Below are positions 22,014 through 31,009 of a stretch of DNA of 64,000 bases, in pieces. Below the pieces are notes generated by a model that saw only the letters and a program-made list of their open reading frames with translations, did no database searches and was not told the origin of the DNA. A program made the translations under genes and the position numbers. Position 1 is the stretch's first letter. Every line of letters begins with the position of its first letter. The stretch comes from Natronosalvus halobius (GTDB taxonomy: Archaea > Halobacteriota > Halobacteria > Halobacteriales > Natrialbaceae), in NCBI RefSeq assembly GCF_024138145.1, contig NZ_CP099997.1:2976001-3040000 (forward strand). Direction: 5' to 3'.

Positions 22014-25000
22014 ATGGACACACGAACCCACATCGTCTACGTCGACCCCGACTGCAACGATAGCGTCGCCCCCGCCGTTCGAGCAGTCGGTCTCGACCTC
22101 GAGTGCGTCGAGAGCGATGAGGCCTGTCTCGACCGACTCGAGTCCGCCGATTGCGTCATTACGGAGTACGACCTCGGACCCGCCGCGAGAACCGGCCTCG
22201 ACCTCTACCGGGCGATTCGTCGGCGAGCGCCGGACGTTCCGGTCGTGCTCTACACCGACGCCGGCAACGAAGCCATCGCAGGCGAGGCACTCGCTGCCGG
22301 CGTCGCCGGCTACGTTCCGAAGTCACAGGGCGTCGAGACCCTCGTGACTCGCGTTCTCGAGGCGATCGTCGAGACGGAAACCGGCGCTGACATCGGTCAC
22401 GACTCCGAATCCGGCCCCAACTCCGACCCTGAATCCGACTCCAACTCCGAACCCGACCCCGACTCCGAATCCAGCGATCCGTTCTCGATCGCAAAAACGC
22501 ACGACGAGCGCAACGAACCGTTCCTCGAGTCGTCGGCCGATCACGTCCAACTCATCGTCGAACAGTCGCCGTTCGCGATCATCAAATGGACCCCCGAATT
22601 CGAGGTCCGCCACTGGAACGAAGCCGCGGCAGACCTGTTCGGCTACACCGCAGCGGAAGCTGTCGGTCGTCACGCGACCGACCTCGTCGTCCCCCAGGAG
22701 AGACACGACGCGATTACCGACTGGTGGTCGACCTGGCTCGACGACGAGCCGAGCACGAACCACGGCATCTCGCGAAACGTCGACAAAGACGGAACGTCGT
22801 TTCGGTGCGAGTGGTCCACGACGCCCCTCGTCGACGCTGACGGCACCGTCAGGGGGGCCCTCTCGTTCGTCCGCGACGCGACGTCGGAGTTCCGGCGTTC
22901 GCTCGCACTCGAGACGCTCCAAGAGACGACCCAGGCGCTGATGCAGACGAGCTCGGAGACCGAAATCGGCGCGCTCGTCATCGACGCGACGGACGAGATT
23001 ATCGACGACGTCCTCGCCGGTATTCGGGTCTACGACGAGGACGCGAACCGACTCGACCTGGTCGCGGTGAGCGATCGACTCCAGGAGCAGACGGCACAGT
23101 TTACGCCGGTCGGTCCCGGCGACGACCCGCTGTGGTCGACGTACGCTTCGGGATCGCCGACCGTCATCGAGGACGCCTCTGCGGAGATGGTCCCCTACGA
23201 TCTCACCGACGAAGTCGGTAACGCCGTGATCTACCCGCTCGGCGATTACGGTCTGCTGACCGTCGCCGCGTCCGGCACCGCCACGATCGAGGAGATCGAT
23301 CTCACCCTGATACGAATTCTCGCGGCGACGGCCGAAGCCGCCTTCGACCAGGCCGCCCGCAAACGCGAACTCGAGCGGGCGAAGACGGTCGTCGAGGCCG
23401 TTGGCGACAGCCTGTACGCTGTCGACACCGAGGGGACGCTCGTCACGGTCAACGACACGATGGTCGAGATCACCGGCTACGACCGGAACACCCTCGTCGG
23501 ACTCCACGCCTCCGAGGTCCTCACCGAGGAGAGTTTCGAGCGCGGGGTCCGCGAAGTCGAGCGACTCGCTGCTGGTGACAGCGACGGAGACGGAGACGAG
23601 GTAGCGACCTACGACGTCGACATCGTCACCGCGAGCGGCGACCTCGTCCCCTGTGAGGTCAACACTACGCTCCTCGAGGGCGAGGGCGACCTCTCCGGCA
23701 GCGTCGGCATCCTCCGGGACGTCACCGATCGCAAGCTGATGGAACAGGAACTCGTCGACCACCGGGAGAAAATGGAGAAGCTTCACGAGATCGCGTCTCG
23801 CCTCGACTCGTGTGAAACGGCCCAGGACGTCTACGACCTCACCGTCGAAACCGCCGAGGACGTTCTCGAGTTCGACGTCTGCGTCGTCGACCGCGTCGAC
23901 GGCGAGTACCTCGAGACCGTCGCCGTCTCCTCGACGATCCACGAGGACGGGTTCTCGAGTCGCGCGCCGATCGACGAGGGCATCGCGGGCAAGACCTATC
24001 GAAACGACCGAACGTACCGGCTCGACGACCTCAGAGCCGACGAGGAGGCGACGCCCGAACGCGACTCCTACCGATCGGTGTTGAGCGCGCCGATCGGTGA
24101 CCGCGGCATCTTCCAGGCGGTCTCGACGGACGTGGGTGCGTTCGATCGGGCCGACCAGGAACTGACCGAGTTGTTGCTCTCGCACGTCTCTGACACGCTC
24201 GACCGCCTCGCGTTCGAAACCCGACTCAAGGCGGAACGCGACCGCTTCGCCGCGCTCTTCGAGAACGTCCCCGATGCGATCGTCAGCACGAAGCGCGTCC
24301 CCGACGGTCCGATCGTCGAGCAGGTGAACCCGGCGTTCGAGCGAATCTTCGGGTACGAGGAGTCCGAACTGCTCGAGAAACCGCTCGACTCGTTCATTGT
24401 ACCCCCCGATCGCTTCGAGCACGCCCAGGAGATCAACGAACGCGGGACGCGAGGGGAAGCCGTCGAGGCGGAGGTCAAGCGTCGAACGAGCGACGGGCTT
24501 CGCGACTTCATGATGCGGGTCGTCCCGATGGACACGAACGGCTCGACCGACCGAGCCTTCGGCCTCTACACCGACATCACGGCCCAGAAACAGCACCAAA
24601 AGCGCGTCGAGATCCTGAACCGCGTCCTCCGACACGACCTGCGAAACGGCATGAACATCATCAACGGCTGCGCGGAGATGCTTGCGGAAGCCGTCGAGGA
24701 CGAGGACGACCGGGACTTTGCCGAAGCGATCCAGGAACGGGCGGGCGAACTCATCAGCCTCGCCGAAAAGACGCGAGCGGTCGAACGAACGCTGGACCGT
24801 GACGGCGCAGCGGCCGGCCCCGTCGACGTCGTCGACTGCGTCGAAACGGCCCTCGGCCGAATCGACGCGGAGTACCCGGCCGTGGACATCGGCTGTGCGC
24901 TCCCCGACCGGGCGCACGCTCGCGCCGACGAACTCCTCGGGGACGCGATCTTTCACGTCCTCGAGAACGCCATCGAACACAGCGACCGGGCGGAACCGAC

Positions 25001-25298
25001 GATCGAGATCGGTCTCGAGGTGGACGACGACGACACGCTTACGCTCACAATCGCCGACGACGGCCCCGGCATTCCCGGGGAGGAACGGGCGCTCTTGCAG
25101 GAAGACGAAGAGATCACCCAGCTCCGCCACGCCAGCGGGCTCGGACTGTGGCTCGTCAACTGGGTGATCACCCAGTCCGGCGGGCAGTTGACCTTCCAGG
25201 AGAACGATCCCCGGGGGACCGTCGTCAGGATGCAGATCCCGACGGCAGACGTACCGACGAGGTCAGCGTCGATCGACGGTACGGCGACGAGCGACTGA
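22014..25298 (+). CDS. Hybrid sensor histidine kinase: degenerate receiver, three PAS, two GAF, HisKA/HATPase
   Basis: 1094 aa soluble multi-sensor kinase. Order: receiver-like domain (1-115); acidic Ser/Asp/Pro linker (~120-160); PAS (~180-290, IKWTPEFEVRHWNEAAADLFG); GAF (~295-445); PAS (~450-575); GAF (~585-730); PAS (~735-860, ERIFGYEESELLEKP); HisKA with H874 in RVLRHDLRNGMN; HATPase with N-box FHVLENAIEHSD and DDGPGIPGEE plus GLGLWLVNWV. In the receiver the phosphoacceptor Asp is replaced by Glu (E51 in VITEYDL), while Thr in VLYTDAG and Lys in VPKSQG remain. It has no membrane segment. It heads a cluster with a second kinase and a CHAT-like protein; no cognate response regulator is adjacent. 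Confidence 0.9.
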   Translation: MDTRTHIVYVDPDCNDSVAPAVRAVGLDLECVESDEACLDRLESADCVITEYDLGPAARTGLDLYRAIRRRAPDVPVVLYTDAGNEAIAGEALAAGVAGYVPKSQGVETLVTRVLEAIVETETGADIGHDSESGPNSDPESDSNSEPDPDSESSDPFSIAKTHDERNEPFLESSADHVQLIVEQSPFAIIKWTPEFEVRHWNEAAADLFGYTAAEAVGRHATDLVVPQERHDAITDWWSTWLDDEPSTNHGISRNVDKDGTSFRCEWSTTPLVDADGTVRGALSFVRDATSEFRRSLALETLQETTQALMQTSSETEIGALVIDATDEIIDDVLAGIRVYDEDANRLDLVAVSDRLQEQTAQFTPVGPGDDPLWSTYASGSPTVIEDASAEMVPYDLTDEVGNAVIYPLGDYGLLTVAASGTATIEEIDLTLIRILAATAEAAFDQAARKRELERAKTVVEAVGDSLYAVDTEGTLVTVNDTMVEITGYDRNTLVGLHASEVLTEESFERGVREVERLAAGDSDGDGDEVATYDVDIVTASGDLVPCEVNTTLLEGEGDLSGSVGILRDVTDRKLMEQELVDHREKMEKLHEIASRLDSCETAQDVYDLTVETAEDVLEFDVCVVDRVDGEYLETVAVSSTIHEDGFSSRAPIDEGIAGKTYRNDRTYRLDDLRADEEATPERDSYRSVLSAPIGDRGIFQAVSTDVGAFDRADQELTELLLSHVSDTLDRLAFETRLKAERDRFAALFENVPDAIVSTKRVPDGPIVEQVNPAFERIFGYEESELLEKPLDSFIVPPDRFEHAQEINERGTRGEAVEAEVKRRTSDGLRDFMMRVVPMDTNGSTDRAFGLYTDITAQKQHQKRVEILNRVLRHDLRNGMNIINGCAEMLAEAVEDEDDRDFAEAIQERAGELISLAEKTRAVERTLDRDGAAAGPVDVVDCVETALGRIDAEYPAVDIGCALPDRAHARADELLGDAIFHVLENAIEHSDRAEPTIEIGLEVDDDDTLTLTIADDGPGIPGEERALLQEDEEITQLRHASGLGLWLVNWVITQSGGQLTFQENDPRGTVVRMQIPTADVPTRSASIDGTATSD

Positions 25299-25367: not shown

Positions 25368-27779
25368 ATGGATACCCCCAATATGTCGCTCCTGCTGGTC
25401 GGTTCGCCCCCCTGCAGGGACGACCTCACGTCCGTACTGTCGAAGGCGGGGTGGTCCGTACGAACCGAATCGACTGTCGAGGATGCGCGCGCGCAACTCG
25501 TGGCGGATTCGTCGGACTCGGTCGACTGTCTCCTCGTGGCGACGGATTCGCCCCACGAGACAGTTTCGACGCTCGAGGAGGCTCGACCACTGGTTCCGGT
25601 TCTGGCGTTGCTTCCTGATTCTGATTCTAATTCTAATTCCAATTCTAATTTCGATTCCAATTCCTCCCTCACCACCGATCCCATCACCGACCCCGGTCCA
25701 GACCCAGACCCCGCCAACAAGCCCACTTCCAACCCGGCCGCGATTCTGGAGGCAGGGGCCACCGATTACGTCGTCCAGGCGGGACCGATCGAGGCGTGGG
25801 GTCCGCTCCTCTGCCGGCGACTCGAGGTGGCTCGAGACCACGTCCTGGAACGGATCGCCTCGCGTGCCCTGTACGACGGAGCTCACGGAACCGACGCGGC
25901 ACTTCACTGCCTGTTCGACGCGAAGTTACGACACGTCGTCGCTGTCGGCGGGGCGCTCGGTCGCGGCCTCGAGGCGTCGTCGCTCGAGGGCGTTGCGATC
26001 GACGAGCTGGCAGCCGACGGGTCCGTCGACTCGGACGACCGCTCCGAGACCGGCCTGGACCCCGGGGCCTGCACCCACCTCGAGGCCAACTACGTCGCCG
26101 CACTCGAGGGAACTGCTCGTCGGCGGGAGTTTCGACTCCGTGGACGGCCGTACGCGGTCGAAACGATGCCCGTACCGGACCTCGAGGGGCGATTCGGCAT
26201 CGCCCGATACCGACCGGTACCGGAGACGACCCCCCGGGAGACCCGGGACAAACTCGATCGCCTTTCGGCAATCGCTTCGGAACTCGACGAGTACGACGAC
26301 GAGTCTCTCATCTGTCGACGGACGGTCGAAACTGCTGCCGAGGTCCTCGAGTTCGACGCGTGTTCGATCACCGAACGGGTGGACGACGAACTCGTCCCGC
26401 TCGCGGCGGCCGCGTCGGACCCATCTCAGTCACTCGAATACCGCTCCGCCGACGACGGAATCGCCGGGGAGACCCTTCGCCGGGGTAAATCGATCGTCGT
26501 CGACGACATTCGCGACGACCCGGTCGCCCGATCGACCGACGATCGCTACCGGTCTGGGCTCTCGATCCCGGTCGGCGAGTTTGGCGTGTTCCAGGCGGCG
26601 TCGATCGAGCCTCGTGCCTTCAGCGATACCGATCGCGAACTCGCCGAACTGCTCGTCTCCAACGCCACCCACGCGATCGAACGGGTTCGCTACGACCGGA
26701 CGATCACCCGCGAACGCGACCGCTTCGCGGCACTCTTCCAGAACGTGCCGGATGCAGCGGTCCAGTACGTCGTCGAGACGGACGAGTCCGGCGAGCCCGA
26801 ACCCATCATCGAAGCCGTCAACGCGGCGTTCGTGCGGCTGTTCGGTTACGAGCCGGTGGACGCCATCGGCCAGTCGACGTGCGACCTGCTGGTCCCGGAC
26901 GACGACGAGGCGCTCGAGGCCGCTCGGTCGCTCTACAACACCGTCGCCCAGGGTGAACGCCTCGAGGCGGAGGTAACCCGACTGGGCGTCGACGGACTCG
27001 CCCCGTTCTTGCTCCGGAGCGCCCCCGTAGGAACCGACGGCGACGACCAGCGCGGCTACTTCATCTACACTGACATCGGCGAACTCGTCGAGCGCGAACG
27101 CCAACTCGAGCGCCAGAACGAACGCCTCGATACGTTCGCCTCGGTCGTCAGTCACGACCTGCGAAACCCGCTGTCCATCGCCAGCGGCTACCTCGAGACG
27201 GCCCTGGACACGGGGAACCGCGAGCACCTTCACGTCGTCGCCGAGGAACACGAACGAATGTACGACATGATCGAAGACCTGCTGCAACTGGCTCGCCAGG
27301 GCGACTCGATCGGCGACATCGAACCCATCGACCTCGAGGCCGTCGCCGAGCGCTCGTGGGACGGCGTCGACACCGCCGACGCGACCCTGTCGATCGAGTC
27401 GGTGCCAGTGGTCGAGGGCGACGCCGACCGCTTACAGCACCTCTTCGAGAACCTGTTTCGAAACGCGGTCCTTCACGGAGGCGACCAGGTCTCCGTTACT
27501 GTCGGGACCAGCGAGGGCGGCTTCTACGTCGAAGACGACGGCCCGGGCATTCCGGACGCATTGAAAGACGAGGTCCTGGAGATGGGCGTCTCGACGGCCA
27601 AAGGACAGGGCGGAAACGGGTTCGGGCTGGCGATCGTTTCCGAAATCGCGGCGGCACACGGGTGGCGCGTCGACGTCGTCGACGGCACCGATGGCGGCGC
27701 TCGCTTCGAGATTTCGATTGACGAGAGTCGACACGGTGGCCTCGAGTCGCTGACCGGCGGGGCTGGTGATCGGAACTAA
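25368..27779 (+). CDS. Sensor histidine kinase: degenerate receiver, PAS-like, GAF, PAS, HisKA/HATPase
   Basis: 803 aa. The N-terminal receiver-like domain (about 1-160) lacks the acidic pair (LLLVGSPP) and the phosphoacceptor (CLLVATDSP), and is interrupted after VLALLP by a ~45-residue Asp/Ser/Asn/Pro insertion before ILEAGATDYV. A region of low PAS similarity follows (~175-285), then GAF (~295-440), PAS (~450-570), HisKA with H596 in SVVSHDLRNPLS, and HATPase (LFENLFRNAVLHGG, EDDGPGIPDAL, GNGFGLAIVSEIA). GAF and PAS are related to those of the preceding kinase, so the pair probably arose by duplication. Its stop overlaps the start of the next gene by 1 bp (TAATG). Confidence 0.88.
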   Translation: MDTPNMSLLLVGSPPCRDDLTSVLSKAGWSVRTESTVEDARAQLVADSSDSVDCLLVATDSPHETVSTLEEARPLVPVLALLPDSDSNSNSNSNFDSNSSLTTDPITDPGPDPDPANKPTSNPAAILEAGATDYVVQAGPIEAWGPLLCRRLEVARDHVLERIASRALYDGAHGTDAALHCLFDAKLRHVVAVGGALGRGLEASSLEGVAIDELAADGSVDSDDRSETGLDPGACTHLEANYVAALEGTARRREFRLRGRPYAVETMPVPDLEGRFGIARYRPVPETTPRETRDKLDRLSAIASELDEYDDESLICRRTVETAAEVLEFDACSITERVDDELVPLAAAASDPSQSLEYRSADDGIAGETLRRGKSIVVDDIRDDPVARSTDDRYRSGLSIPVGEFGVFQAASIEPRAFSDTDRELAELLVSNATHAIERVRYDRTITRERDRFAALFQNVPDAAVQYVVETDESGEPEPIIEAVNAAFVRLFGYEPVDAIGQSTCDLLVPDDDEALEAARSLYNTVAQGERLEAEVTRLGVDGLAPFLLRSAPVGTDGDDQRGYFIYTDIGELVERERQLERQNERLDTFASVVSHDLRNPLSIASGYLETALDTGNREHLHVVAEEHERMYDMIEDLLQLARQGDSIGDIEPIDLEAVAERSWDGVDTADATLSIESVPVVEGDADRLQHLFENLFRNAVLHGGDQVSVTVGTSEGGFYVEDDGPGIPDALKDEVLEMGVSTAKGQGGNGFGLAIVSEIAAAHGWRVDVVDGTDGGARFEISIDESRHGGLESLTGGAGDRN
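25615..25668 (+). repeat. Hexanucleotide repeat (GATTCT/AATTCT) inside the second kinase gene
   Basis: About nine degenerate copies of a 6-bp unit (ATTCTG, ATTCTA, ATTCCA, TTTCGA) encode alternating Asp/Asn and Ser. The tract is A+T-rich, unlike its surroundings, and lies in the insertion within the receiver-like domain. Six-base units keep the frame. Confidence 0.8.
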
Positions 27780-29800
27780 TGATCGACATCTCGGTGATCG
27801 ATACGACTATCCGTGCGACCGACCCGGCCGACAACAGCGTCGAACTCGACGTCGTCGGCTGGGATCGCATCGACAATCACTACACCTTCGTCGAACCGGT
27901 CGACGACGTGATCTCTGCTCGTGTATCCGAACTGACGCTGCCAGCGAACTTTCCACTCCTCTCGGAAGTCTTCGCCGACGGTACCTCCCGTCGACGCGCC
28001 GCCATCGACGACGAAAGCCGACTCGATATCGATTCCGGCTCGTACCAGATGTTGATCGAGACGCCGGTCCAGGTGACGATCCGGTTCGACGGCGAGGCCA
28101 CGATCAGGTCCACCGACGGCGAACTCACGATTTCGTTTCCCCACCCACAGCGAGTGAGCGTCGGCTTCACGACCTGGCTCAAACGCCCGCGAGAGACGAT
28201 CACCGTCCCACGAACGCCCGAGGGGATCGCGACGGGACTCTCACACATGTCGGCGTCGATTCGAGCGTCTAATTCGCAAAAAGTCACGGCCATGAACCGA
28301 CCTCACCCGCCGAGAATCCGATACGGTGACTCGCTTGAGGTACCGGATGCCGTTCGCAATCGAACCCCCGAAACCGGAATCGAACTGCGGGTTCCATCCA
28401 GTCTCGAGTACCTGTTTTCTGCCGCCCCGCTCGTCTACTATCTGGGGGCCAGGATTCGCCTCGAACCCGGCGATCCCGTCCTCTCGATCGACGGTACGGA
28501 ACGGTACCGGTTCGAGTCGATGCCGGGGTTCCAGTACCAGTGTGCGTCCCTGCTCAGACGCGTGTTCCTGCTCGACATGCTGGTGCGAAGCGATCAGCAC
28601 ACCGAGACTCCATCCCAGGAACTCGACTTGCTCTCGCTCCTCGAGTTCGATCCCGCTACTTGCGTCGACCTCGAACCGGGCCCCCAGCTCGCGTACTACC
28701 TTGAGGCCGACTTCGAGCGAATCAGCCACGCCCTGCCGGACTGGCACTTCGTCGGCTACGTCGAGCCAACGCTGGATCACGTCGAGGCGATCCCATACCT
28801 GCTCCAGTACCTGGCGACGATCTACCATCCTGCGGCCGTGCCGGGATCGACGTCCGGCGGCGAGGCACATCGACGCTGGCAACGGGCACCCGACACCGTT
28901 CCACGGCGACTCGTCGAGGGCGGTCCTCACGGGAGCGCCGCGGTCTGGATGGCCGACGGCGCGCCGCCGGATCCGACGCTGTTTCGCGCATCGCCGGCGG
29001 GCTTCGTTAACCGGCCCGAGTACGTCGACCGCGCGGAAACCGCCGGAAGCGTCGTCGTCGTCTGCAACGACGCGAGTCGAACCGACGAGTGTGGGGCTGC
29101 CGTGAATCGTTACCGCGCCACCGGCCCCGCAGACATCGACCTCGAGGTTCGCACCGACCTCTCGTGTGCCGACCTGCGCGAGCAATTCGAACGGGGGGCC
29201 GACTTCCTGCACTTCGTCGGCGACTGTCGAGACGGACTGTCGTGTCCAGACGGCACGCTACGACTCGAGACCCTCGACCAATCACACGTTCGGCTCTTCT
29301 TCCTCGACGGGTACGATTCGCTCGAGGCAGGCGAGACCTGCATCGAACGCGGGAGCGTCGGCGGGTTCGTCCGGGGAACGGGCGAACTGAATCCGGCCTA
29401 CCGCGAGCGACTGCTCGGACTGTTTGCCCAGGGACTCACCGTCGACCAGACGGTTCGATACGCCGCTCTCCCTGCCGACGAGCGAGGAGACGTTATCGCA
29501 CTCGGCGACGCCCATCAGCAACTCGCGAGAATGTTGAACCTCTACTGCGTCCCCGCCGTCGTGGAAGCCCGTGACGCGCTCACCTACCAGGTGGAGGCCT
29601 ATCCCTACATTCCCGAGGCTGGCTTCATCTGGCGACCGGGGCCGCTCAATGTCGAACCCCGACTCTGTAGCAATCCGTTCCACGTGACCATGTCGGGGGT
29701 GCAGTTCGAGTCACTGGTCGAGTTCGAGAACTTGCTGCCCATCGAGGGCGACACCGTCTACTGGGACTCGAGTCGGGGCCTGTTCTACCCGCTGTTCTGA
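27779..29800 (+). CDS. Protein with a CHAT-like (caspase-fold) domain lacking the catalytic dyad, coupled to a histidine kinase
   Basis: 673 aa, no signal peptide or membrane helix. Residues ~1-165 look beta-rich; 200-350 contain VPSSLEYLFSAAPLVYYLGA and a helical part (LLRRVFLLDMLVR). Residues ~424-545 follow the CHAT protease order: strand VVVVCND, then ADFLHFVGDC where active CHAT domains have HFxGH, then VRLFFLDGYDS where active ones have LSAC. Both catalytic His and Cys are replaced, so it looks like a pseudo-protease. The remainder (QGLTVDQTVRYA; LARMLNLYCVP) resembles the CHAT tail. The 1-bp TAATG overlap with the kinase implies a common role. I recognise no characterised homologue; the CHAT assignment is from motif spacing only. 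Confidence 0.62.
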   Translation: MIDISVIDTTIRATDPADNSVELDVVGWDRIDNHYTFVEPVDDVISARVSELTLPANFPLLSEVFADGTSRRRAAIDDESRLDIDSGSYQMLIETPVQVTIRFDGEATIRSTDGELTISFPHPQRVSVGFTTWLKRPRETITVPRTPEGIATGLSHMSASIRASNSQKVTAMNRPHPPRIRYGDSLEVPDAVRNRTPETGIELRVPSSLEYLFSAAPLVYYLGARIRLEPGDPVLSIDGTERYRFESMPGFQYQCASLLRRVFLLDMLVRSDQHTETPSQELDLLSLLEFDPATCVDLEPGPQLAYYLEADFERISHALPDWHFVGYVEPTLDHVEAIPYLLQYLATIYHPAAVPGSTSGGEAHRRWQRAPDTVPRRLVEGGPHGSAAVWMADGAPPDPTLFRASPAGFVNRPEYVDRAETAGSVVVVCNDASRTDECGAAVNRYRATGPADIDLEVRTDLSCADLREQFERGADFLHFVGDCRDGLSCPDGTLRLETLDQSHVRLFFLDGYDSLEAGETCIERGSVGGFVRGTGELNPAYRERLLGLFAQGLTVDQTVRYAALPADERGDVIALGDAHQQLARMLNLYCVPAVVEARDALTYQVEAYPYIPEAGFIWRPGPLNVEPRLCSNPFHVTMSGVQFESLVEFENLLPIEGDTVYWDSSRGLFYPLF

Positions 29801-29821: not shown

Positions 29822-31009
29822 CTACCTTGTGAGCGGCTGGTTGAACCCCGTCTCGAGGTCGAGAACGGCCTCCCAGGTCGCCTCACACTCACACGAAACT
29901 TGCTCGAACACCGACGGGTCCTGTCGCAGGTCGAAGTCCTTGATCGCCTTCTGGACGAGGTCGTCGCACTCCCCGCAGTTGTGGGCGCCGCGGTCGGTGC
30001 CGTGGCCGACGGGGTCGGAGACGACGATGCCCGCCACGTCGGCCGTCCGCTCGAGGACGGCGGCGACCGACCAGAGCCACGGCGGGCGGTAGCCATCCTG
30101 GAAGTAGAGGTCGTCGACCATGGTGTAGCGCTGGACGTTGCAGGGGTTCATCGAGACGGTGTGACAGCCGTCGACGGCCAGGCAGCGTTCGACGGAGGCG
30201 ACCATGTCCTCGAGGGCCTCCGATTCGGTGAGGAAGGGGGGTTTCATGAGGAGGTAGGCTTTGATGCCGGCGCCGCCGGTTTCACCGGTTTCGCCTGTGC
30301 TGTCAGTTTCGTTGCCTGTGGCGTCAGGTTCGACGTCGACATCGACATGGGCATCAACATCGGTTTCGGCGCCACCAGCCTTGTCCGCCGCGACCGCTTC
30401 CGCACAGGCGTCCTCGAACGCCTCGAAGTCGAAGTACTTGTTCACGCAATCGCGGCGAACCCGATCGGTCGCCGTCTCGAGCCCGATCGCCACGTCGGTC
30501 TGGAGGCCGTATTGCGTGAAGTCCCCGATCTTCTCGCGGTCGACGAAGTCGGGCAGGGACTCTAGTACGATGCGCTCGCGGTCACCGAAGGTTTCGGCGA
30601 TAGCCTTGCGGGACTCGGCGCTCACCTCGCGCTCGTCGAGGAACGACCCGGAGGTGTAGATCTTGATCAGCGGCGCGGGTTCGTTGGCCTCGTCGGCTTC
30701 GTGATCCAGACAGACCTGGATCTGGTCCATCAGCGCCTCGTGGGGGACCGTCCCGCCGTCGACGCTCTCGGCGACGTAGCCACACATCGTACAGCCGCCC
30801 GCCCGCGCCCAGCGACAGCCGCCGGTGTTGAGGATGATCGTCAGGCTCTCCCTGACGCCGTTGGGCGTGTTGTCCTCGTCGAGCCAGACCCGCGTCGGTT
30901 CGTGGGGGTCGTAGCTCTTCTCTTTGCGCGAGCGAACCTCGCGCATCACCTGGTTGTGGGCGTCCATGCCCTTGCCCTGCTCGTAGACCTCGGGCGTCGG
31001 CTGGCTCAT
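29822..31009 (-). CDS. raSEA: Archaeosine biosynthesis radical SAM protein RaSEA
   Basis: 395 aa. With ArcS it converts the lysine adduct on preQ0-modified tRNA G15 to archaeosine. The radical SAM cluster motif here is CRWARAGGCTMCGY (CX7CX2C, about residues 66-77), followed by KIYTSGSFLDERE and ESLPDFVDREK, then MNPCNVQRYTMVDDLY and a second Cys set near the C-terminus (HNCGECDDL, SCECEATW) that suggests another metal site. An acidic Asp/Val/Gly/Thr insertion of ~45 residues (about 205-250) interrupts the core between EAVAADKA and GIKAYLLMKPPF. Convergent with the CHAT-like gene; arcS is not in the window. Confidence 0.9.
   Translation of the reverse strand: MSQPTPEVYEQGKGMDAHNQVMREVRSRKEKSYDPHEPTRVWLDEDNTPNGVRESLTIILNTGGCRWARAGGCTMCGYVAESVDGGTVPHEALMDQIQVCLDHEADEANEPAPLIKIYTSGSFLDEREVSAESRKAIAETFGDRERIVLESLPDFVDREKIGDFTQYGLQTDVAIGLETATDRVRRDCVNKYFDFEAFEDACAEAVAADKAGGAETDVDAHVDVDVEPDATGNETDSTGETGETGGAGIKAYLLMKPPFLTESEALEDMVASVERCLAVDGCHTVSMNPCNVQRYTMVDDLYFQDGYRPPWLWSVAAVLERTADVAGIVVSDPVGHGTDRGAHNCGECDDLVQKAIKDFDLRQDPSVFEQVSCECEATWEAVLDLETGFNQPLTR

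Follow-up and report, generated by a model that had tools for sequence, protein, structure and literature searches.

What does a CHAT-like protein without its catalytic residues do directly behind a histidine kinase? This question is raised by a gene pair of Natronosalvus halobius, located in the 64,000-nucleotide stretch of contig NZ_CP099997.1 analysed here (positions 2,976,001 to 3,040,000, hereafter the window). The initial annotation of the pair took the downstream protein for a CHAT-derived module that has lost its catalytic residues and is tied to a kinase of the PAS/GAF type, a view that our analysis supports: the predicted fold matches, the catalytic dyad is lost, and all 38 dyad-lost homologues reside in kinase loci (38/38). 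We show that this dyad-lost clade, which we refer to as pseudo-CHAT, has kept a genetic link to soluble GAF-PAS kinases of a single orthologous clade. Judging from the sequences, an ex-protease of salt-loving archaea appears to serve now as a dedicated signalling component that no longer cuts.

The histidine kinase and its junction with the pseudo-CHAT gene

The pair and its junction comprise the following features:

25368..27779, forward strand: histidine kinase HK1, 803 aa, defined by its Pfam domains and its tree position in the pseudo-CHAT-paired kinase clade
27777..27781, forward strand: TAATG overlap, in which the HK1 stop TAA (27777-27779) and the pseudo-CHAT start ATG (27779-27781) have one base in common
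27779..29800, forward strand: pseudo-CHAT protein P0001, 673 aa, defined by family alignment, tree and model

HK1 contains a GAF domain (aa 315-438; PF13185), a PAS domain (aa 452-574; PF08448/PF13188), a HisKA domain (aa 587-644; PF00512, 8.3e-15) and a HATPase_c domain (aa 684-786; PF02518, 1.6e-18), all above the Pfam cut-offs. Its H-box VVSHDLRNP and the NLFRNA and DDGPGI motifs are intact, so that HK1 carries the features of a two-component histidine kinase. Read by eye, its N-terminus resembles a degenerate receiver.

The one-base overlap reported between the kinase and the next gene is read directly in the sequence. Translational coupling, proposed on this basis, would apply to the window pair, and an ATGA overlap is found at the equivalent junction of the sister genome (G175). 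In other pairs, the spacing between the kinase and pseudo-CHAT genes ranges from -4 to about +160 nt, or the kinase lies downstream. We therefore reject translational coupling as a general trait of the pair: the overlap is local, kept in few loci only, and the spacing varies among loci.

A haloarchaeal CHAT-related family with a dyad-lost clade

The haloarchaeal CHAT-related family has matches in 223 of the 242 genomes, spread over 65 of the 73 genera and often several per genome, and the window's own genome carries four family genes. Most members display the pattern H-[YF]-[IV]-G-H-x ... F-[FL]-L-N-[AG]-C-x-S, which is the CHAT His/Cys layout. Dyad-intact relatives pass the PF12770 (CHAT) cut-off in 6 of 97 genomes, the best score in the family being 34.1 bits (E 2.5e-8, G023:C1:1089141-1089602), and 7 of the 19 members of family alignment A1 match this profile at E <=1 (best 1.2e-5). 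The pseudo-CHAT protein has no match in Pfam or NCBIfam, with zero PF12770 hits at E up to 1; the expectation that a profile search would reach the CHAT family thus failed for the protein itself and held for its close dyad-intact homologues. Over the CHAT part, it shares 20-31% identity with dyad-intact members (alignment A4), and is therefore CHAT-related by descent, despite the absent direct profile match. Neither P0001 nor any A1 member matches Peptidase_C14 (p20), the matches being confined to CHAT, a weak C25 and two DUFs. A related-locus scan with the single pseudo-CHAT protein as query found none. Existing database names follow the same line, as some dyad-intact members are annotated "caspase family protein" or "CHAT domain-containing protein", and a dyad-lost one "hypothetical protein". 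PADLOC profiles gave no match to P0001, HK1 or two dyad-intact paralogues, and no defence context was seen; an anti-phage system was rejected on these grounds.

The motifs pointed out in the initial annotation, VVVVCND (425-431), LHFVGDC (477-483) and LFFLDGYDS (506-514), are all found in the 673-aa protein, and its claim that both catalytic residues are replaced was confirmed by alignment: the His column is occupied by D482 and the Cys column by Y512, where 104 of 104 dyad-intact homologues carry His and Cys. The sites of interest are:

29222..29224, forward strand: D482 at the catalytic His column, from the alignment with 104 dyad-intact members
29306..29314, forward strand: D510-G511-Y512, with D510 at the invariant Asn of NAC and Y512 at the catalytic Cys column
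29780..29797, forward strand: C-terminal tail LFYPLF, aa 668-673, with the clade signature (F/L/A)(Y/N/F)Pxx-COOH

Among the 38 dyad-lost members, the His column holds Asp in 20, Glu in 9, Asn in 4, Arg and Thr in 2 each and His in a single case, and the Cys column Pro (22), Thr (5), Ala (4), Tyr (2) and others, Cys in none; not one member keeps both dyad residues (0/38). At the Asn column adjoining the Cys, where all 104 dyad-intact members have Asn, the dyad-lost members show Asp in 34, Glu in 3 and Pro in 1. Three further members, recovered by the reverse test described below, have Pro at the His column, Asp at the Asn column and no Cys at the Cys position. Around the old site, H478 (36/38), G481 (37/38) and C489 (36/38) are conserved, and D491, G492, G525 and G576 are found in all 38. 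Because residue N510 has become Asp or Glu in 37 of 38 members, the old active site has been replaced and did not merely drift or erode. A tail of the LFYPLF or KQLLYPIS type is common to the 38 dyad-lost members and absent from the 104 dyad-intact ones; AlphaFold2 predicts residues 668-673 to be disordered (pLDDT <50).

Compared with its counterpart in G175, the pseudo-CHAT gene has a dN/dS of 0.137 over the whole gene and of 0.119 over aa 401-600, values that indicate purifying selection. With an open frame and this ratio, a recent pseudogene was rejected, as was a chance resemblance of the motifs, since the pattern is common to the whole clade and close relatives have an intact dyad. Proteolysis has probably been lost, as inferred from the residues; we class the protein as a pseudo-peptidase related to CHAT and do not count it among the CHAT peptidases.

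The predicted structure retains a caspase/separase fold

Three regions were delineated in the protein:

27779..28213, forward strand: N-terminal beta-rich domain, aa 1-145, from the AlphaFold2 secondary structure (pLDDT ~90)
28214..28978, forward strand: middle alpha/beta domain, aa 146-400, from family alignments and a Foldseek gingipain match over 379 columns
28991..29578, forward strand: CHAT/caspase-fold domain, aa 405-600, from the domain model, Foldseek and dyad-intact relatives passing PF12770

The AlphaFold2 model of the whole protein, built on an alignment of 60 sequences, reached a pLDDT of 86.8 and a pTM of 0.88, and that of domain 400-608 a pLDDT of 92.3 and a pTM of 0.89. Loci recovered by genome search did not enter the alignments used for prediction. 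The extra beta-rich N-terminal half that had been described is thereby reduced to about residues 1-145, residues 146-400 being mixed alpha/beta. Conservation within the family is highest in this middle domain (YYLGA, FLLD), which may correspond to the non-catalytic subdomain found in gingipain or separase.

In Foldseek searches, gingipain R was the best PDB match to the whole model (probability 1.00), and the domain matched gingipain R (0.97-0.99), yeast separase (1.00) and procaspase-3 (0.93). The relationship to CHAT/separase folds suggested earlier is thus backed by clan-CD peptidases at probabilities of 0.93-1.00, with E-values of only ~1e-3 to 1e-2, none of which passes 0.001. The receiver domains ComE and PhyR were among the weak neighbours of the CHAT-like domain. 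A profile of the full-length protein matched no PDB sequence, and that of the domain gave a weak match to 8tl0, a "CHAT domain-containing protein" (E 0.011). In the predicted model, D482 follows beta-3 and D510/Y512 stand at the end of beta-4, which are the places of His and Cys in the caspase fold. We conclude that the model keeps the caspase/separase (clan CD) fold.

Kinase pairing is confined to the dyad-lost clade

To relate the catalytic state to the gene context, 142 distinct members with flanks were sorted by the two catalytic columns: 104 have an intact dyad and 38, the window protein included, have lost it. A same-strand kinase within 400 bp was found for none of the 104 dyad-intact members and for 35 of the 38 dyad-lost ones, the other three being tandem copies in kinase-bearing arrays (L037, L043). 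The partner is a GAF-PAS histidine kinase in every dyad-lost locus, located upstream in 29 of the 35 pairs and downstream in 6, and most pairs have retained its H, N and G motifs. Dyad-lost members were confirmed in 29 genomes, as counted from loci, belonging to the window's own family and one other (f7). Locus L043 (5601-12540, reverse strand) carries three tandem pseudo-CHAT copies with one kinase between them, and L037 two tandem copies.

In a reverse test, 20 further kinase loci were picked by similarity to HK1 alone; one (G208) was already known to lie near a family match, and the rest were blind. Three of these kinases fell inside the paired clade (support 98), each with an adjacent dyad-lost CHAT gene, and for the 17 outside it no family gene was present in the 10-12 kb fetched. 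Homologues lying away from histidine kinases, which would speak against the pairing, are therefore the rule across the family (0/104 dyad-intact members paired) and not in the dyad-lost clade, where the kinase pairing is kept across neighbourhoods (38/38, and 3/3 in the reverse test).

The pair has a single origin and has diverged together

A tree of 81 family members, computed after removal of the active-site stretches, placed the 38 dyad-lost members in one clade (SH-aLRT 100), with a single change of state against a mean of 27 after shuffling. The paired kinases also form one clade (support 95, and 98 with more kinases), and the few seemingly unpaired rows inside it are duplicate copies of paired loci. 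Since the dyad was lost on one branch, the link of the two origins is one phylogenetic event, and only its maintenance is replicated.

This maintenance is visible in the pairwise distances between 35 pairs, in which kinase and pseudo-CHAT mirror each other with r = 0.875, the best of 2,000 permutations reaching 0.21. Six genomes hold two diverged pairs, and in each of them both halves are deeply diverged, which is not expected from the species tree alone; where a genome has paralogous loci, each of them retains a partner of its own. Grouping the loci by common neighbours yielded about 10 context groups (one of 17 loci, one of 8, two of 2 and six singletons), and the 38 members therefore cannot be counted as so many independent cases. 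Across these groups and both gene orders, the pair has outlived many relocations.

Gene neighbourhoods

Apart from the syntenic neighbourhoods (17 and 8 loci), no third gene conserved with the pair is common to all loci; raw clustering of neighbouring ORFs was swamped by antisense ORFs. Directly upstream of HK1 lies a further kinase gene:

22014..25298, forward strand: second histidine kinase, receiver-PAS-GAF-HK, 1094 aa, from its ORF and Pfam domains

Only two other pairs (L171, L178), both of the same synteny group, have a related kinase in their vicinity, 1.5-3.5 kb away, and membership of this second kinase in the module is thus not supported. On the other side, a gene for a radical SAM protein (29822-31009, reverse strand) is convergent with the pseudo-CHAT gene, and a similar gene is found near the pairs L038 and L039.

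Dyad-intact members have neighbours of their own. Of 46 members of the GHC/NACGS type, 42 adjoin glyA and tbsP, a regulator gene (L044, L048, L050, L052, L053 and others), which makes this a strongly conserved linkage, and a DUF7504 (PF24336) gene is located near 21 of 58 members of the GHI/GHV type, directly upstream in L255 (L255:4128-6998). Each of three subfamilies of the CHAT-like family thus seems to have a partner of its own.

A proposed signalling module and its alternatives

We propose that the two genes encode a two-protein signalling module, in which pseudo-CHAT would be an accessory sensor or regulator on the input side of the kinase rather than a protease, a reading to which we give an even chance. 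Pseudo-CHAT would be the dedicated, non-proteolytic protein partner of HK1 and would dock on it partly via the conserved disordered C-terminal FYP-type tail. More speculatively, the cleft that once took the substrate, now rebuilt around acidic residues (D/E482, D510), may bind a ligand, be it a peptide, a protein or a metal, and the occupancy of the cleft may set kinase autophosphorylation; pseudo-CHAT may in this way work as an input to the kinase instead of a protease. These last steps are the least certain. Two observations speak against this proposal: with GAF and PAS domains of its own, the kinase has no obvious need of a further input, and the residue at 482 varies (D/E/N/R/T/H, with P in the three added members).

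The signal could also run the other way, the kinase acting on pseudo-CHAT through phosphotransfer to D510 or phosphorylation-dependent binding, with pseudo-CHAT replacing a response regulator and relaying the signal. This reading is in line with the Asp at 510 in 34 of 38 members and in the three extra ones, where beta-4 of an alpha/beta fold ends, with Asp or Glu at 482 in 29 of 38, with acidic residues after beta-1 in many members and with the ComE and PhyR receiver domains among the weak Foldseek neighbours. Inspection of the neighbours recognised no response regulator gene beside the pair, one elsewhere in the genome being possible. However, haloarchaeal kinases are mostly orphans, and for this reason the missing regulator gene says little. 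Position 510 is moreover Glu, which is no phospho-acceptor, in three members and Pro in one, and no Lys of the receiver type is conserved. Overall, we consider an output role rather unlikely, and its stricter form, in which the former protease pocket is the phospho-acceptor site (D510) and pseudo-CHAT a response regulator whose scaffold is a caspase fold and not a receiver domain, quite improbable.

Pseudo-CHAT might instead behave like FLIP, pairing or competing with the dyad-intact CHAT proteins of the same cell under control of the kinase. Dyad-intact paralogues do occur in the same genome (L002/L044, L004/L046), and precedents exist in the cyanobacterial pseudo-orthocaspases (PMC6426788) and in FLIP(L) (PMC7586951). 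Yet dyad-intact members are nearly universal, which makes co-occurrence uninformative, hetero-oligomerisation would be hypothetical, and such a role alone leaves the exclusive kinase partnership unexplained; we regard it as improbable.

That the two genes are neighbours for historical reasons, without joint work, could be argued from the fact that 17 of the 35 loci represent one conserved syntenic locus and 8 another, so that many observations are not independent. Against this stand the spread of the pair over about 10 neighbourhood groups and either gene order, its presence in paralogous copies within one genome and on a plasmid (L040, a Natrononativus plasmid), together with a paired kinase clade that is exclusive in the sample and a reverse test without exception, making mere hitch-hiking in an operon very improbable. 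Finally, H478 and C489 (36/38 each) near the old site, with the invariant D491 and G492, would leave room for unusual residual activity, catalysed by H478, C489 and D491, but these residues are also (near-)invariant beside the intact dyad of dyad-intact members and are better read as structural, and with the canonical dyad gone and Pro the commonest residue at the Cys column, we give hardly any credence to a remaining enzyme. The two-protein module, with an input role proposed for pseudo-CHAT, stands as our preferred reading.

Comparison with known systems

In animals and cyanobacteria, regulatory roles of pseudo-proteases are well established. A search for papers on CHAT domains in haloarchaea, or on CHAT domains together with archaeal histidine kinases, found none, which is weak evidence of absence, as few subscription papers were covered. 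In Haloferax volcanii, caspase-like activity has been measured, no homologous gene being known for it (PMC3615174); the near-universal dyad-intact family members are candidate genes for this activity.

In fold and motif layout, pseudo-CHAT is similar to the CHAT peptidases (PF12770; TPR-CHAT/Csx29 of Craspase, HetF). Of these, TPR-CHAT is active and carries H585 and C627 (PMC9729208). By contrast, both catalytic residues of pseudo-CHAT are replaced, it has no TPR, CRISPR context or PF12770 match, and it is paired with a histidine kinase. Gingipain R (RgpB, 1cvr/4ief) and separase, the best Foldseek matches to the whole model and to the domain, are active peptidases of other families, with ~10% identity to pseudo-CHAT in the alignment.

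The pseudo-orthocaspases of cyanobacteria and alphaproteobacteria (PMC6426788) likewise form a conserved caspase-fold clade in which the HC dyad is replaced, in their case by Y/S. They are bacterial p20 (caspase/metacaspase) proteins, whereas pseudo-CHAT is haloarchaeal and CHAT-related, with acidic replacements and an exclusive kinase partner. The 2019 survey of p20 caspase homologues recorded dyad-lost forms in Bacteria and none in Archaea (PMC6426788). An ex-protease clade that always occurs with one kinase clade offers a clean, testable pair in which to follow the passage of a peptidase fold into a signalling part. A further parallel is the human pseudo-caspase FLIP(L), a dead paralogue of active caspase-fold proteases serving as a regulator (PMC7586951); FLIP(L), however, pairs with caspase-8, whereas the genetic partner of pseudo-CHAT is a two-component kinase.
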